A DNA stretch of 64,000 bases, from assembly GCF_002848135.1 (NCBI RefSeq), contig NZ_PKGB01000011.1:1-64000 (forward strand). The letters run 5' to 3'. Of the stretch, positions 3,240 to 11,061 are shown in pieces. Below the pieces are notes generated by a model. That model saw nothing but the letters and a program-made list of their open reading frames with translations. It was not told the origin of the DNA and did not search any database. Position numbers and translations under genes: made by a program. This DNA is from Hydrogenovibrio sp. SC-1 (lineage in GTDB: Bacteria; Pseudomonadota; Gammaproteobacteria; Thiomicrospirales; Thiomicrospiraceae). Every line of letters starts with the position of its first letter. The first letter of the stretch is position 1.

Positions 3240-3524
3240 TTAATGATCTAGGGCTTTGTCAGTAAATAACCAGTCTCTGAGTTCTTTATCAAACACAGGG
3301 TCATTTCGGCGAATCCATTCAAGTGCCATGGCCGCGTGTTCTTTTTCTTCATTCGCATTGTGTTGCAGAATTTTTTTAAGTGCCGGGTCCTTACAGGCAT
3401 CGACACGTTGGTTATACCAGTCGATAGCTTCTAGCTCTTCCATGGTGGACACAATGGCTCGGTGCATATCGCGAGTTTTGTCGGTCAGTTCAGAAATGGG
3501 TTCGTGATAACCTTCATGAGACAT
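3240..3524 (-). CDS. EncFtn-like ferritin-fold protein (orphan)
   Basis: 94 residues closely resembling the encapsulated ferritin family (Rhodospirillum rubrum Rru_A0973 type). HRAIVSTMEELEAIDWYNQR is followed by ANEEKEHAAMALEWIRRNDP, with the iron-ligand glutamates and histidine of the two half-ferritin helices. Such proteins form a decamer with ferroxidase centres at dimer interfaces, normally inside an encapsulin shell. Here the protein ends soon after LFTDKALDH, with no encapsulin-targeting tail, and no encapsulin gene is in the window. The ATG at 3524 is preceded by AGAGGA at 7 bp. A longer frame to 3578 is less likely. Role in iron oxidation is inferred from the family. Confidence 0.8.
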   Translation of the reverse strand: MSHEGYHEPISELTDKTRDMHRAIVSTMEELEAIDWYNQRVDACKDPALKKILQHNANEEKEHAAMALEWIRRNDPVFDKELRDWLFTDKALDH

Positions 3525-3714
3525 GGATGAATCCTCTTGATTAAATAATAAATAGAATAAGCTTGTTTGGTTTTGCATTAAAACGAGCGCTCACGACTAT
3601 GTTAAATCAGCTTTTCATATTTGAAGAGTTTTTTTAGCAGTCGAGTGAAATATTTTTGTAAATGCTTTAAAGCGCAGCGTTAAATTGTTAGGATGGGATT
3701 AATGAATTTTAATT

Positions 3715-3741: not shown

Positions 3742-3760
3742 CTGAATATTGGGGGTTTCT

Positions 3761-4924
3761 ATGGTGTGGGATGAAATTGTCAATCAAGCGATTGAGCTTC
3801 GACACTGGTTTCATCGTCACCCTGAATTAACTTGGCAAGAAGAAAATACCTCTGAAAAAATTCGCAGTCTTTTAGATGATTGGCAAATTCCTTGGCGAAG
3901 TTGTGCAACCTATGGCGTCGTAGCGACGTTAGCGAAAGATAAGCTTGGTAAACATATTGCATTGCGTGCGGATATGGATGCGCTTCCGATTCATGAGCAG
4001 ACTGAAGTCAACTTTTGTTCTACAGAAGAAGGCAAAATGCATGCCTGTGGTCATGATGGTCATATGGCAGCACTGTTAGGAACCGCCAAATGGCTTAAAC
4101 AGAATGAGGCTCATTTATCTAGCCCAATTAGCTTGATTTTTCAACCTGCTGAAGAAGGGGGGCATGGCGCTCAGAAAATGATAGAAGATGGAGCGCTTGA
4201 GGGGGTCGATATGATTTTCGGCTGGCATAACTGGCCAGCGATGCCATTTGGCACTGCAATTTGTCCAGATGGTGCGGTTATGTCTGGCAATGGCAGTTTT
4301 CATATTGATTTAGTTGGCCTTGGTGGACATGCCTCTCAGCCAGAAGCTTGTCATGATCCAGTACTTGCTGCTTCAGCGATTACCCTGAATCTTCAGCAGA
4401 TCGTCAGTCGGCGCTTACCGCCGCAGGCCGCTGTTGTTGTTAGCGTCACTCAATTACTCGCCGATTCCGATGTCACGATTATTCCTCAAACCGTTCATAT
4501 GGCAGGAGGAATTCGACTATCTGATCCAAAATGGCGTCCTCAAATTAATAAACTGATCACTCAAATTGCCGAAGATACGGCAGCCACTTACGGTGTAAAG
4601 GCGACTGTTAAGATACTGCCAAGATATGAAGCAACGGTGAATCATCCAGATGTTGCACATCTATACCGCTCCGTTTTACATGATGTTTTGGGAGATCACT
4701 ATAATCATATTGATTTAATGATTCCGATTATGGCATCTGAAGATTTCAGTTATTACTTGCAAGAAATTCCAGGCGCCTTTGCCTTGATTGGCATGTCTGA
4801 ACAGGGTTCAGAAGATGTTCAGTATCAGTATCCTTGTCACAATCCACATTATGAGTTTAATGACCGCTTGATTGAGCTGATTATGCGTAGTTTTTCAAAA
4901 TTAGCTGGCATTAAAGCTGCTTGA
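3761..4924 (+). CDS. doeB2: M20-family amidohydrolase, probable N-acetyl-diaminobutyrate deacetylase (DoeB2-like)
   Basis: 387-residue M20/M40 metallo-amidohydrolase of the hippurate-hydrolase type. Family metal ligands are visible: Cys96 and His98 in HACGHDGH, the Glu131-Glu132 pair in FQPAEEGGHG, and His156 in GWHNWP. The family removes acyl groups from amino acids. Next to DoeD-, DoeA- and DoeC-like genes, the fitting role is removal of acetyl from N-acetyl-2,4-diaminobutyrate in ectoine breakdown; that substrate comes from context. The ATG at 3761 has GGGGG 5 bp upstream. A TTG at 3749 is possible but has no ribosome site. The next gene follows after 54 bp. Confidence 0.7.
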   Translation: MVWDEIVNQAIELRHWFHRHPELTWQEENTSEKIRSLLDDWQIPWRSCATYGVVATLAKDKLGKHIALRADMDALPIHEQTEVNFCSTEEGKMHACGHDGHMAALLGTAKWLKQNEAHLSSPISLIFQPAEEGGHGAQKMIEDGALEGVDMIFGWHNWPAMPFGTAICPDGAVMSGNGSFHIDLVGLGGHASQPEACHDPVLAASAITLNLQQIVSRRLPPQAAVVVSVTQLLADSDVTIIPQTVHMAGGIRLSDPKWRPQINKLITQIAEDTAATYGVKATVKILPRYEATVNHPDVAHLYRSVLHDVLGDHYNHIDLMIPIMASEDFSYYLQEIPGAFALIGMSEQGSEDVQYQYPCHNPHYEFNDRLIELIMRSFSKLAGIKAA

Positions 4925-4978
4925 TCTTTTGTAGTTGCACAAATAGTTTTCACAACTCAACCAGTAAAGGGGAAAATT

Positions 4979-6235
4979 ATGGATTGGTTTGAAGCCTATG
5001 AATCCGATATCCGAGCCTATAGTCGCGTTTATCCTGCGGTGTTCGTAAAAGGTGATAATGCACGACAGATTGATGAAGATGCACGGGAATATATTGACTT
5101 CTATGCTGGTGCAGGTGTGCTTAATTTTGGACATAATAATCCAAAAATGACGCAAGCCATGGTCGATTATTTGCAATCCGGTGGAGTGTTACACACCCTC
5201 GATATGATGACGCCTCCAAAAAGAGATTTTATTCAAGCATTTGTTGAAACCATTCTTAAACCACGCAAGATGGATTACAAACTGCAATTTATGGGGCCAA
5301 CGGGCACCAATGCTGTGGAAGCTGCGCTTAAATTGGCGCGTAAAGTGACAGGGCGTGAAACGGTAGTGGCCTTTACACAGGGGTTTCATGGGATGACATT
5401 AGGGGCACTTGCTTGCACTGCAAACCAGTATTTTCGTCAAGCTTCAGGCGTGCCTTTACTGAATGTCACTCGTTGCCCGTTTGAAACCCACCAAGGCGGT
5501 GGCTTGGAAGCGATTGAAACATTGGACAGCCTGTACAGCAATACGTCTTCAGGTATGGAGTTACCCGCAGCGTTTATTGTAGAAACGGTGCAAGCGGAGG
5601 GCGGTGTCAATGTCGCTTCGGCTGAGTGGATGCAAGCTTTACAAGCTTTGGCAAAGAAACTGGGCGCATTGTTGATTGTGGATGATATCCAAGCCGGCTG
5701 CGGTCGTACTGGCCAGTATTTTAGCTTTGAAGATTTAGGCATTGATCCAGATATTGTCACTTTGGCAAAAGGCATAGGTGGTGCAGGCACACCAATGGCA
5801 ATGAATTTGGTGAAACCAGAACATGATCAGCATTGGCAGCCAGGTGAACATACGGGTACTTTCCGTGGACAGAACCTTTCTTTTGTCGCAGGTCGTGAAG
5901 CGCTTCACTATTTTGAAGATGATCGCTTGATGCAACAAGTCAGGGAAAAAGGCGACGTGATGCGCAAAGCACTGCAATCGATCGCTGATACTTATCCAGA
6001 TAAGGGATTTGAAGTCAGAGGTAAAGGGATGATGCAAGCGTTAGATGTCCATGACGGCGCACTGTCTAAAGCGATTGCCAAAGACTGTTTTGAGCATGGT
6101 TTGTTGTTTGGTCCCTGTGGTATCGGTGGTGAAGTTATGAAAATGATTCCACCTTTGACCATTCCGGATACTGATTTAGAACAAGGGTTATCAATCTTAA
6201 CGGCAGCAGTTGAACGCCAAGTTAATACGGTTTAA
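4979..6235 (+). CDS. doeD: Diaminobutyrate-type class III aminotransferase (EctB/DoeD-like)
   Basis: 418-residue PLP enzyme of aminotransferase class III, very similar in pattern to EctB: FYAGAGVLNFGHNNP, QFMGPTGTNAVEAALKLARK, FHGMTLGALA, IVDDIQAGCGRTG and the PLP lysine Lys264 in TLAKGIGG. EctB and DoeD catalyse the same interconversion of 2,4-diaminobutyrate and aspartate semialdehyde, so sequence alone does not give direction. No ectA or ectC is present while hydrolase-type genes flank it, so the catabolic name is preferred. AAAGGGGAA precedes the ATG. It sits 11 bp before the M24 gene. Confidence 0.75.
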   Translation: MDWFEAYESDIRAYSRVYPAVFVKGDNARQIDEDAREYIDFYAGAGVLNFGHNNPKMTQAMVDYLQSGGVLHTLDMMTPPKRDFIQAFVETILKPRKMDYKLQFMGPTGTNAVEAALKLARKVTGRETVVAFTQGFHGMTLGALACTANQYFRQASGVPLLNVTRCPFETHQGGGLEAIETLDSLYSNTSSGMELPAAFIVETVQAEGGVNVASAEWMQALQALAKKLGALLIVDDIQAGCGRTGQYFSFEDLGIDPDIVTLAKGIGGAGTPMAMNLVKPEHDQHWQPGEHTGTFRGQNLSFVAGREALHYFEDDRLMQQVREKGDVMRKALQSIADTYPDKGFEVRGKGMMQALDVHDGALSKAIAKDCFEHGLLFGPCGIGGEVMKMIPPLTIPDTDLEQGLSILTAAVERQVNTV

Positions 6236-6246
6236 GGAGTAGAGCG

Positions 6247-7497
6247 ATGAGAGAAAGAGATGATATGACTTTTCCGTATGTTGAATATCAACGGCGTATT
6301 AGTGAGCTCAGAACTCGAATGGCAGAACGACTATTAGATGCGGTGATCATCTCTGATGCCGAAAATATTTTGTATCTGACTGATTACCAGACAACTGGTT
6401 ATTCGTTTTTTCAAGCGCTCGTAGTGCCTTTGGAAGGCGAGCCTTTTATGGTGACCCGTAAGCTAGAAGAGTCCAATGTGATTCATCGAACTTGGGTTGA
6501 GGTAACACGACCCTATCCTGATACAGGGGATGCGATTCAAATGTTGATCAGCTCATTAGTTGAGTTTGGGTTGGCTGGGAAAACCATTGGTTATGAACGA
6601 AACTCTTATTATTTTAATGCCTATCATCAAGATGTGTTTCGTACCTCGTTTGTTCGCAGTCGATTAATGGACTGCTTTGGCATTGTCGAACAAAGTCGTG
6701 TTTGCAAGTCGGAATATGAGTTAGAGGCGATGAAAAAAGCGGCTTATGCAACCAAAGCCGGTATGCAAGCAGGGTTAGATGCGGTTCAGGCGGGTGTAAC
6801 AGAAAATGAAATTGGCGGGGCGATAAGTCAGGCGATGTTTTCAGCGGGTGGTGAAATTCCAGCGGTGATGCCGTATGTGACTTCAGGACCAAGGACGATG
6901 ATTGGTCATGCATCCTGGGAAGGGCGAGTTGTTAAGCCTGGCGAACACGTCTTTATTGAAGTTGCTGGCTGTTACCGTAAATACCACACGGCAATGATGC
7001 GTACTGCAATTTGTGGTGACTTGTCAGACAGTATGTTTCAAGCACAAGAAGTCATGAAAAAAGCCATTAAGGCATTGCGCTATGAATTAAGACCTGGTGT
7101 GACGGTTTCGGATGTGGATCGAATGGTTCGAGATATTTTGCATGAAAATAAAGTCGGGGCACGTTTGATTACCCGATCGGGTTATTCAATCGGGATTGCA
7201 TTTCCACCTTCTTGGGATGAAGGCTATATCCTAAGTTTAAATCAAGGACAGTCAGATATTCTCCGGCAGGGTATGACATTTCACATTATCCCCTGGTTAT
7301 GGGGAGTGGACGGCGATAAGACCTGTGGCATTTCGGATACCTTTTATATTACTGAAGATGGTTGTGGTTCTTTCTTTGAAGATTTTGAACAGGATTTTGT
7401 GATTAAGCCTGGCAAAACCGATGATAAGGGAAATTCAGTGACCTCGATCGCCAAACCGAAACCAGCCCGTGAAAAAACCAAAAAAGAGACGGTATAA
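6247..7497 (+). CDS. doeA: M24-family hydrolase, probable ectoine hydrolase (DoeA-like)
   Basis: 416 residues with a creatinase-like N-terminal domain (about 10-155) and a pita-bread M24 domain (about 160-390). It shares with DoeA a C-terminal pattern GYSIGIAFPPSWDEG, then GMTFHIIPWLW, and CGISDTFYITEDG. DoeA opens the ectoine ring to N-acetyl-2,4-diaminobutyrate. The basic tail after residue 390 (KPKPAREKTKKE) is unusual. AAGGAG lies 7 bp before the ATG and overlaps the stop of the preceding gene, indicating one transcript. A generic Xaa-Pro peptidase is the main alternative, but the operon context argues for ectoine. Confidence 0.7.
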   Translation: MRERDDMTFPYVEYQRRISELRTRMAERLLDAVIISDAENILYLTDYQTTGYSFFQALVVPLEGEPFMVTRKLEESNVIHRTWVEVTRPYPDTGDAIQMLISSLVEFGLAGKTIGYERNSYYFNAYHQDVFRTSFVRSRLMDCFGIVEQSRVCKSEYELEAMKKAAYATKAGMQAGLDAVQAGVTENEIGGAISQAMFSAGGEIPAVMPYVTSGPRTMIGHASWEGRVVKPGEHVFIEVAGCYRKYHTAMMRTAICGDLSDSMFQAQEVMKKAIKALRYELRPGVTVSDVDRMVRDILHENKVGARLITRSGYSIGIAFPPSWDEGYILSLNQGQSDILRQGMTFHIIPWLWGVDGDKTCGISDTFYITEDGCGSFFEDFEQDFVIKPGKTDDKGNSVTSIAKPKPAREKTKKETV

Positions 7498-7523
7498 CGG
7501 CTAAAAACGTATTAGGAGATGTT

Positions 7524-8909
7524 ATGTTAATTGCAACCAATCCTTATAATGGTGAAGAAATTCATCGTTATCCCCCTCTTGATGAATCGCAATTGTCAGC
7601 TGCGATTGACCGTTCAATAACGGCTCTTAATCAATGGAAACACACTGATTTCGATACTCGTTCTAAGTTGTTGAAAGGGATCGCAAAGCGGATGCGTAAT
7701 GATAAAGCACATCTGGCACAATTAATGACGATTGAGATGGGTAAACCCATTACCGAATCTTATGGTGAAGTTGAAAAGGCGGCTTGGTGTGCTGAGCATT
7801 ATGCCGACCATGGTGCCGATTATTTGCAATCGATCAAACTGCCTTCAGATGCAACGAACAGTTATGTTCAACATCTGCCTCTCGGCACAATCTTGGGTAT
7901 ATTGCCTTGGAATGCCCCTTTTTGGTTGGCATTTCGTTTTTGTGCGCCCGCGATTATGGCTGGTAATACTTGTTTAATGAAGCATGATGAACATGTGCCT
8001 GCTTGTGCCGAAGCGATTGCTGAACTTTTTACTCAGGAATGTGCATCTCAAGGGTTACCACAAGGTATTATGCAGAATTTACCGATTCACCGCGAACAAG
8101 TCGAACAGGTGATAAGGCATCCTGCTGTAAAAGCGGTTTCTTTGACGGGGTCTAGTCGTGCGGGCAGTCAGGTGGCTTCTTTGGCGGCATCGTTAATTAA
8201 GCCAGCGGTGATGGAACTCGGTGGTTCTGACCCCAGTATCGTGCTTGCCGATGCGGATATTGATCAGGCGGTTGAAGTCTTAGCCTTGTCTTGAATTATT
8301 AATGCGGGTCAGTCTTGTATCGCAGCGAAACGTTTAATTGTGGAGGAAGCGGTTTATGACGAATTTGTCGAAAAACTCCATAAACGATTGGCGACATTAA
8401 AGATGGGCGACCCATCCGAACCGGAAACACAAGTCGGTCCGATTGCACGTCCCGATTTACGAGACGCCTTGCATCGTCAAGTGACAGTGACCGTTGAACA
8501 GGGCGGAAAATGCCTCTTGGGCGGTGAAATGCCTGAAGGTCCTGGTTATTTTTATCCAGTAACGTTATTGGTCGATGTGACAAACGACATGCAGGCCTCC
8601 TGTGAGGAAACCTTTGGTCCTATTGCGGTGGTGATGAAAGCAGCATCTGAACGTGAGGCACTGCAAATTGCCAATGATACGCCTTATGGGTTAGCGGCCT
8701 CTATTTGGAGTGCGGATACCGAAAAAGCCATTAAACTGGCCTCCACGATTGAAGCGGGTCAGGTGGCGATTAATGGCATCGTTAAAACAGACCCAAGATT
8801 GCCGAGTGGGGGAATAAAACAATCTGGCTATGGTCGAGAGCTGGGACCTCACGGCATTATGGAGTTCGTCAATATTCAGCAAGTCTGGGTGGGTCCAAAA
8901 GTCGATTAA
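7524..8909 (+). pseudogene. doeC: Aldehyde dehydrogenase (DoeC/Sad-like) split by an in-frame TGA
   Basis: One reading frame of 461 codons of the NAD-dependent succinate- or aspartate-semialdehyde dehydrogenase family, broken by a TGA at 8292-8294 (codon 257). Before it: NPYNGEEIHRYP, LGTILGILPWNAPFW, TGSSRAGSQVAS and the catalytic-glutamate motif ELGGSDPSIVL. After it, in the same frame: INAGQSC with the catalytic cysteine at 8316-8318, then ETFGPIAVV and GIKQSGYGREL. Relatives such as E. coli Sad have Arg at the stop position, so a single CGA to TGA change explains it. With no other damage, the loss is recent, the codon is read through, or the base is an error. It would finish ectoine breakdown by making aspartate. 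Confidence 0.8.
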
Positions 8910-8913
8910 AGTG

Positions 8914-8956
8914 TTGAGTATTTTCTACTCAATAAAAACCGCTCTGATTGAGCGGT
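8914..8956. terminator. Two hairpins between doeC and umuD
   Basis: TTGAGTA (8914-8920) pairs with TACTCAA (8926-8932), and ACCGCTC (8938-8944) pairs with GAGCGGT (8950-8956). Read on the minus strand, the second stem is followed by TTTTTATT, a good rho-independent terminator for umuD. On the plus strand its tail, CGTTGTTTG, is weak. Confidence 0.7.
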
Positions 8957-8986
8957 CGTTGTTTGTGCTGTTCGTGCGACTTTAGG

Positions 8987-9625
8987 TTAAAACTCTCGAA
9001 TGGTTGAGGTGACTACGCCCCAGATGGTGATGTCGGTCTCTTCTTTAATTTCAATTGGTGGATAGTCATCATTTTCGGGCAGTAACCAATTGGCTGTCGG
9101 AGTCATCGACAGGCGCTTAACCGTGAGTTCACCATCAATCGCGGCAATCACAATCTTGCCGCTTACCGGTTTAATACTTTTATCGACCAGTAATAAATCG
9201 CCGTCTAAAATACCGACATTTTTCATAGAGTCGCCCTCCACGCGCAAAATAAACGTGGTTTCTGGGTGATGAATCAACCGCTCATTTAAGTTTAAACGCG
9301 CTTCAATATAATCATCAGCAGGGCTGGGAAAACCAGCAACGACCTTGTGCCCATAGAGCGGAATATCCGCATACGAGGGTGTTTGGGTGGTGTCTGGTAG
9401 AAACAAGGTGACGGATGTGTTGTGGTGTGTTTTGAGTGCAGTTTCTGTTGCGTGTTGTGTAGGTTGGTTTGTCAGCCAATTTTTAATAACCGATACCTTA
9501 GAAGCAGGGACACGCATCACTTGGGTGGGTTCGCCATAAAGACCACTGCCTTTTTTTCGACCCGCGCCTTTTCGTAATCCGCCATGTGCAGGCCTGGTTG
9601 TTTTAGAGGCTTCTTTTTGGCTCAT
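8987..9625 (-). CDS. umuD: UmuD-like S24 autoprotease with extended N-terminus
   Basis: 212 residues. The second half matches UmuD: an Ala97-Gly98 cleavage site in VVAGFPSPADDY, Ser133 in EGDSMKN and Lys170 in ELTVKRL form the Ser-Lys self-cleavage centre triggered by RecA filaments. About 70 extra N-terminal residues, including KGAGRKKGSGLYGEP, precede the usual UmuD start and are strongly basic. After cleavage it should activate the translesion polymerase encoded divergently 71 bp away. I start at the ATG at 9625. The frame runs on to 9886 but that part overlaps umuC. No strong ribosome site is seen. A copy of the CCAGGCCTGG family lies in the N-terminal coding region. Confidence 0.85.
   Translation of the reverse strand: MSQKEASKTTRPAHGGLRKGAGRKKGSGLYGEPTQVMRVPASKVSVIKNWLTNQPTQHATETALKTHHNTSVTLFLPDTTQTPSYADIPLYGHKVVAGFPSPADDYIEARLNLNERLIHHPETTFILRVEGDSMKNVGILDGDLLLVDKSIKPVSGKIVIAAIDGELTVKRLSMTPTANWLLPENDDYPPIEIKEETDITIWGVVTSTIREF
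9588..9597. repeat. CCAGGCCTGG family, one mismatch (in umuD)
   Basis: Reads GCAGGCCTGG, followed by TTGTTTTAG. In umuD it lies in the third frame (ACC AGG CCT GCA, Thr-Arg-Pro-Ala), the only coding copy in that frame. Confidence 0.7.
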
Positions 9626-9648
9626 ATAGTGTCTCGTCTTCTGTGTGG

Positions 9649-9668
9649 AATGGTATGATAATGCCATT
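9649..9668. promoter_or_regulatory. Imperfect 20-bp palindrome between umuD and umuC
   Basis: AATGGTATGA joined to TAATGCCATT matches its own complement at 8 of 10 positions per half. It is centred in the 71-bp divergent gap and could serve both genes. It does not match the enterobacterial SOS box (CTGT-N8-ACAG), so any LexA role is a guess. Confidence 0.4.
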
Positions 9669-9696
9669 ATTGTAACAGTTTTCAAGTGGGGTTTGA

Positions 9697-11061
9697 ATGT
9701 CGTCTGGTTCTCATCTTTTTGCTTTGGTTGATGGCAATTCATTTTATGCCTCCTGTGAAATTGCGTTTCAACCGAAACTGGCGAGACGTCCAGTGGTGGT
9801 GTTATCGAATAATGACGGCTGTATTGTCGCCGCCAATGCCGTCGCCAAGTCCTTAGGCGAACAGTGGATGCGACAGCGCGGCTCACTGGGGTCGGGCGGT
9901 TATCGTTCGGCCGTGCCGACCAATATGATGTTTCAGCCGTATTTTAAAATTAAACCCTTATTAGATCGTTATCAGGCGGCGGTCTTTAGCTCAAACTATG
10001 AACTCTATGCCGATATGTCGAGTCGTATGCACCGTCTTGTCGGGCATTTTGCGCCTCGTCAAGAAATCTATTCGATTGATGAAAGTTTTTTAGACTTGTC
10101 CGGTCTGTCACATTTGGATTTAACCGATTATGGGCTGCAAATTAAACAGACGGTACAGCAGGGCATTGGCATTCCCGTGGCAGTTGGTATCGCTCAAACC
10201 AAAACCTTAGCCAAACTGGCCAATCATCTAGCGAAAAAACAATTAAGCCAGCAAGGGGTTTTCGATCTGACGCAATTTAAAGATGAAACGTTAAACGCGC
10301 TTTTAGCTCAAGTGGGCGTCGAAAAAATTTGGGGCATTGGTCGGCAGTTGTCCAAGCAGTTAAAGCAAGATCATATTCAGACGGTGTATGATTTAAAAAT
10401 AGCCAATTCTAAGCGTATTCGTAAGCGTTATGGTGTGGTGGTTGAGCGTACTTTAAGAGAGCTGAATGGTGAGTCTTGTTTAGCCTTGGAGTCGGTGCGA
10501 GCGAATAAGCAGCAAATAATCTGTTCACGATCTTTTGGCATTGCAGTACAGTCTTATCAAGAGATGGAGTCGGCCGTGGTTAATTATGTTTGCCGTGCGG
10601 CAGAAAAATTACGTCAACAGCAATCGGTGTGTAATTTTGTGACGGTTTGGGTGACCACTAATCCATTTGACGATAAACGCCCAGTGTATCGTAACCAGCA
10701 AACCATCGGCTTGATTTACCCATCGGATAACAGTAGCTTGCTGACGAAATTGGTTAAGCGAGCGTTAAAGCAAATTTGGGTGCCAGGGTTGAGCTACCAA
10801 AAAGCGGGGGTCATTTTGTCAGAAATTGCCACTAAAGGGGCTTTGCAAGAGGATATTTTTGCACCGAATCCGACCTATTCGGGCAACCCCAAACAAGCTA
10901 AGTTAATGGCACTGATGGATCAATTGAATTTAACATCCGGTAAAAATACGCTGTTTTTAGCGGCTGCAGGTATGCCTGATAAACAAGGTTGGCAAATGAA
11001 ACGAGATTTAATGTCGCCGCGTTATACCACTTGTTGGGATGAATTGTTGACGGTACGTTGA
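9697..11061 (+). CDS. umuC: UmuC-like translesion DNA polymerase (Y family)
   Basis: 454 residues. Y-family active-site motifs are visible: FALVDGNSFYASCE near the start and SIDESFLDLSG at about 126-136. The C-terminus has the UmuC ending MKRDLMSPRYTTCWDEL. Compared with typical UmuC there is an extra stretch of roughly 20 residues after AKSLGEQW (RQRGSLGSGGYRSAVPTN) before the usual FKIKPLL. With cleaved UmuD it should form error-prone Pol V at stalled forks. GGGG lies 5 bp before the ATG. The divergent arrangement with umuD is unusual, because most genomes have a umuDC operon. Confidence 0.9.
   Translation: MSSGSHLFALVDGNSFYASCEIAFQPKLARRPVVVLSNNDGCIVAANAVAKSLGEQWMRQRGSLGSGGYRSAVPTNMMFQPYFKIKPLLDRYQAAVFSSNYELYADMSSRMHRLVGHFAPRQEIYSIDESFLDLSGLSHLDLTDYGLQIKQTVQQGIGIPVAVGIAQTKTLAKLANHLAKKQLSQQGVFDLTQFKDETLNALLAQVGVEKIWGIGRQLSKQLKQDHIQTVYDLKIANSKRIRKRYGVVVERTLRELNGESCLALESVRANKQQIICSRSFGIAVQSYQEMESAVVNYVCRAAEKLRQQQSVCNFVTVWVTTNPFDDKRPVYRNQQTIGLIYPSDNSSLLTKLVKRALKQIWVPGLSYQKAGVILSEIATKGALQEDIFAPNPTYSGNPKQAKLMALMDQLNLTSGKNTLFLAAAGMPDKQGWQMKRDLMSPRYTTCWDELLTVR

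Follow-up and report, generated by a model that had tools for sequence, protein, structure and literature searches.

The doeC gene of Hydrogenovibrio sp. SC-1, which codes for a DoeC-type semialdehyde dehydrogenase and is positioned last in an operon for degrading the salt protectant ectoine, is interrupted by an in-frame TGA codon. The probable explanation (we estimate a probability of around 0.8) is that a single base changed recently to create the stop, a nonsense mutation that is either fixed in SC-1 or still polymorphic within its species, with loss of DoeC. Most likely, this is an ordinary gene-breaking mutation in a known operon rather than a new way of reading the code. Note that "the window" refers to the whole 64,000-nucleotide stretch of DNA analysed. 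Coordinates are those of the window unless a contig is named.

An in-frame TGA codon divides doeC

The doeC frame (7524-8909, plus strand) has 462 codons and ends with TAA. The premature TGA (8292-8294) is codon 257, and the next base is A. The frame is open on both sides, with 256 codons before the TGA and 204 after, and has neither a frameshift nor a second premature stop. In profile searches, the 5' part including the TGA (7524-8294) and the remainder up to the TAA (8295-8909) match positions 12-257 and 263-461 of the same 461-position profile, PF00171 (Aldedh). Likewise, they match positions 5-252 and 260-457, of 457, in NF006915 (NADP-dependent succinate semialdehyde dehydrogenase). The first-pass annotation, which reported a TGA at this position with the frame intact either side, was therefore correct.

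It also placed the stop eight codons before the catalytic cysteine, and we find the same. The codon in question is the TGT of a GQSC motif (8316-8318); in solved succinate semialdehyde dehydrogenases such as 4it9, the aligned residues are likewise GQSC. We take this to be the catalytic cysteine of the aldehyde dehydrogenase family. The product made up to the TGA, of 256 amino acids, ends eight residues short of it. Standard in-frame start codons after the TGA are GTG (8340-8342), TTG (8388) and ATG (8403), in that order, and all are 3' of the cysteine codon. Neither fragment should be active, since the first ends before the cysteine and every standard restart follows it. Hence, the doeBDAC operon of the window has no intact DoeC reading frame.

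The window was scanned for coding signal continuing in the same frame on both sides of a stop. Four candidates, including the doeC TGA, were obtained. Inspection by eye showed the remaining three to be genuine gene ends: M50 peptidase/pseudouridine synthase, leuC/leuD, and accD/folC. Hence, the split in doeC is beyond what chance would give.

doeC is the last gene of an ectoine degradation operon

Three intact genes precede doeC on the plus strand. These are doeB (3749-4924), encoding an N-acetyl-L-2,4-diaminobutanoate deacetylase of the DoeB2 type (NF038260, 638.3 bits, cut-off 550); doeD (4979-6235), encoding a diaminobutyrate-2-oxoglutarate transaminase (NF006733, 623.6 bits, cut-off 438; TIGR02407, 560.6 bits, cut-off 552.2); and doeA (6247-7497), encoding an ectoine hydrolase of the DoeA2 type (NF038259, 755.8 bits, cut-off 575). 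NF038259 and NF038260 are curated family models. The earlier view that the upstream genes are healthy is thus confirmed. The four genes are adjacent and co-directional, in the order doeB-doeD-doeA-doeC. An AGGAGA sequence just 5' of doeC (7510-7523, plus strand) probably marks its ribosome-binding region. Two strong hairpins on the same strand, 3' of doeC (8912-8956), probably form the transcription end; the fold of 8910-8985 has an energy of -24.9 kcal/mol and a z-score of -3.81. Directly 3' of doeC, at 8990-11061, are divergent DNA polymerase V genes, UmuD-like (NF007621, 163.2 bits, cut-off 110) and, by eye, UmuC-like. On the other side, an encapsulin-associated ferritin-like protein is encoded on the minus strand at 3243-3578 (TIGR04535, 131.8 bits, cut-off 125).

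The operon had been called "ectoine-type". The link to ectoine stands but the label needs to read ectoine degradation, because biosynthesis is encoded by a separate, intact ectA-ectB-ectC-aspartokinase (ectABC-ask) cluster on contig C1, with an ectB distinct from doeD. With this cluster intact, the cell is expected both to synthesise ectoine and to degrade it.

The doeBDAC order has been described, in excerpts of PMC7192451, for Methylomicrobium alcaliphilum 20Z and Methylophaga. As far as those excerpts go, the likeness extends to the lack of a regulator gene in the cluster and to a host ectABC-ask; the premature TGA in doeC is the difference. The Halomonas elongata cluster has the same four enzyme functions assigned in PMC3187862, but there the order is doeA-doeB-doeX-doeC-doeD. 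Furthermore, the classical DoeA model (TIGR02993, cut-off 613) gives DoeA of the window no more than 186 bits. A literature search with ectoine, judged by title, found no paper on the doe operon in Thiomicrorhabdus or Hydrogenovibrio.

The stop is confined to one of 15 orthologues and replaces an invariant arginine

DoeA exceeds its cut-off in 15 of 62 genomes of the family, and the same 15 carry a doeC orthologue. The gene is open in 14; only the window doeC has a stop inside the conserved core. More broadly, among 81 dehydrogenase matches in the 62 genomes (E <= 1e-60), it is again the only one with an internal stop.

The first-pass annotation stated that relatives have arginine in place of the stop. 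This holds: of 50 relatives aligned, 45 have a residue at this position, and it is arginine in every one. The other five comprise two contig ends and three loci on the other strand, and the three genomes concerned have arginine once correctly oriented. Each of the 14 other family genomes that carry the operon has arginine too, as do all 19 paralogue-type loci compared, the paralogue of doeC in the genome itself, and solved succinate semialdehyde dehydrogenases such as 4it9. In the 14 family orthologues, and one metagenome-assembled relative, it is encoded by CGA, CGC, CGG, CGT, AGA or AGG. A change from CGA to TGA, as proposed previously, fits because the nearest relative (G060) has CGA. However, AGA, the codon of two relatives on a neighbouring branch (G056 and G078), likewise lies a single base away from TGA.

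The doeB-doeD-doeA-doeC order recurs in all 14 other genomes with one exception: no doeB was detected upstream in the stretch of G060 examined. That stretch (L042:1-3400) has doeD-doeA-doeC, with four tRNA genes in the place of doeB.

No decay in doeC past the stop

Against a profile of its orthologues, the window doeC scores 871.5 bits, within the range of intact orthologues (869.7-902.1 bits). In an alignment of 16 rows, unique changes at otherwise invariant columns number two of 115 before the stop and one of 111 beyond it, much as in intact genes. Identity is higher after the stop than before it in comparisons with all 18 loci used, which include one paralogue and two genomes represented twice. 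In a two-omega branch model with six taxa, omega was 0.102 after the stop and 0.036 elsewhere. This difference was non-significant (2dlnL 3.35) and synonymous sites were saturated, since no close strain was in the comparison. The same test, applied to control branches and intact genes, gave 2dlnL values of up to 6.33, with similar or larger values for several intact genes, so the model favours neither reading.

Judged on these comparisons, the break in doeC appears to be recent on the scale of the compared species, or not real. The score within the intact range, the higher identity after the stop and the scarcity of unique changes point to a recent loss. In this, doeC resembles bacterial pseudogenes made by point nonsense mutation: a single in-frame stop, in a single genome, with intact relatives and no decay yet. 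It differs from ordinary cases only in that its operon was probably gained by horizontal transfer. Note that lack of decay is equally expected from a consensus error, or from a gene still used via readthrough.

Consensus error, readthrough and other explanations

An error in the consensus or assembly, with doeC in fact intact, is unlikely. Such an error would account for a gene that is otherwise undamaged, scores like intact orthologues, differs by one base from the codon of the nearest relative, and is the only one of its sort in the window. Conversely, the genome is nearly complete, with completeness of 100 and contamination of 0.09, and the window has no N and no other broken gene that we could find. 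A lone substitution error in an otherwise clean consensus is uncommon.

Readthrough of the TGA by the ordinary tRNA-Trp or another near-cognate tRNA could give some full-length DoeC. We regard this, at a useful level, as quite unlikely. In E. coli, tRNA-Trp is reported to misread UGA readily when A follows (Engelberg-Kulka 1981, cited in a passage of PMC5289835). Hence, weak readthrough of doeC, with its TGA-A context, is possible, and the lack of decay past the stop is as readthrough would predict. However, arginine in 14 of 14 other family orthologues argues that this is no conserved recoding site, and tRNA-Trp would insert tryptophan where arginine is invariant in orthologues and paralogues. 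No stimulatory RNA structure was detected after the TGA (z-scores of -0.33 for 50 nt and 0.47 for 100 nt). The tRNA-Trp of the genome also speaks against readthrough. A form with a 4-bp anticodon stem reads UGA, according to part of PMC13092985. The genome's own tRNA-Trp has a CCA anticodon and, by eye, five anticodon-stem pairs, so is not this form. Finally, no UCA anticodon was present among 35 typed tRNAs (150 of 196 first-look candidates scored).

A related scenario, which we consider decidedly unlikely, is that the stop is maintained. The horizontally acquired operon would have been trimmed to a doeB-doeD-doeA module, feeding nitrogen from ectoine, along with aspartate semialdehyde, back into biosynthesis in an ectoine-making cell, with trace DoeC supplied by UGA-A readthrough. 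A functional split dehydrogenase, put together from two separately made chains, is very unlikely: both halves are intact and a GTG restart is available at 8340, but the cysteine is absent from the upstream product and from products started at GTG 8340, TTG 8388 or ATG 8403, and a C-terminal product containing it would need a rare ATT start.

Programmed recoding, as selenocysteine or otherwise, is extremely unlikely: the codon is TGA, but relatives carry arginine, not cysteine, and neither a tRNA-Sec (best 45.7 bits, Rfam cut-off 47) nor SelB was above cut-off in the genome. The locus giving 45.7 bits was typed as a tRNA-Ser with anticodon TGA. An Rfam search of the window gave no match at gathering scores. 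With tRNA-Sec, SelB and, among the 35 typed tRNAs, a UGA-reading tRNA all undetected in the genome, the earlier suggestion of readthrough finds no support in the form of recoding by selenocysteine or a suppressor tRNA.

The operon was probably acquired from another genus

Hydrogenovibrio sp. SC-1 carries the same genus label as its closest genome, G003, and their RecJ proteins are 86% identical (next best 69%). The doe proteins group with another genus, on a branch with seven Thiomicrorhabdus-type genomes (support 100/100). Constraining the doe tree to the organism's own genus was rejected with p-AU 0.014, a somewhat optimistic value since the group was chosen after the tree was seen; constraining it to G003 alone was rejected with p-AU 5e-5. 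DNA synteny with G003 starts at 8987, just past the doe operon, and the neighbouring G003 stretch sits on a different contig in Hydrogenovibrio sp. SC-1. The GC content of the doe genes (0.44-0.47, compared with 0.434 for the window) does not set the operon apart. The grouping with a different genus, together with the break in synteny, suggests that the operon (3749-8909) was probably acquired horizontally.

Consequences for ectoine metabolism

If the nonsense mutation is real, translation of doeC would end after 256 residues, before the catalytic cysteine, and the gene would yield no DoeC activity. DoeB, DoeD and DoeA should still be made because doeC is the last gene. Similarly, with strong hairpins behind doeC, the operon should contain nothing further downstream for the stop to affect. 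Ectoine would still be hydrolysed, deacetylated and transaminated to aspartate semialdehyde. With DoeC removed and the other three enzymes intact, breakdown should end there, the aldehyde no longer being oxidised to aspartate by DoeC. Instead, it may enter ectoine synthesis, flow into the lysine/threonine branch or be oxidised by a different dehydrogenase. An intact paralogue of doeC (44% identical; C10:51985-53343) might act on aspartate semialdehyde. Overall, we infer that translation does stop at the TGA in vivo, that neither fragment is active, that DoeB, DoeD and DoeA are functional and that the aldehyde has one of these fates. Aspartate semialdehyde is described, in an extract of PMC5924519, as an ectoine precursor and a hub of amino-acid metabolism.

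The doeC mutant of H. elongata serves as a model for this loss. All four doe genes have been deleted in that organism; in the relevant extract of PMC3187862, the doeC mutant did not grow on ectoine as sole carbon source but did grow with ectoine as nitrogen source plus glucose. The first-pass annotation had named recent loss, readthrough and a wrong base without preferring any of them, and its proposal that the pathway was "just lost" was right in part. Recent loss is the best supported reading, with a stop in one of 15 orthologues and no decay. However, only the last step is gone, three of four genes remain, and ectoine nitrogen was still used by the H. elongata mutant, so loss of the pathway is too strong a description.

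The named Thiomicrorhabdus relatives are autotrophic sulfur oxidisers. By analogy, if Hydrogenovibrio sp. SC-1 lives likewise, losing the carbon-yielding last step could cost it little. The finding matters little in general, although annotators should flag doeC as an interrupted gene and not take complete conversion of ectoine to aspartate for granted in this strain. The mutation would be nature's equivalent of the doeC deletion made in H. elongata. It may also illustrate how an operon that probably crossed between genera loses its terminal gene before the others, at a position where a nonsense mutation exerts no polar effect.
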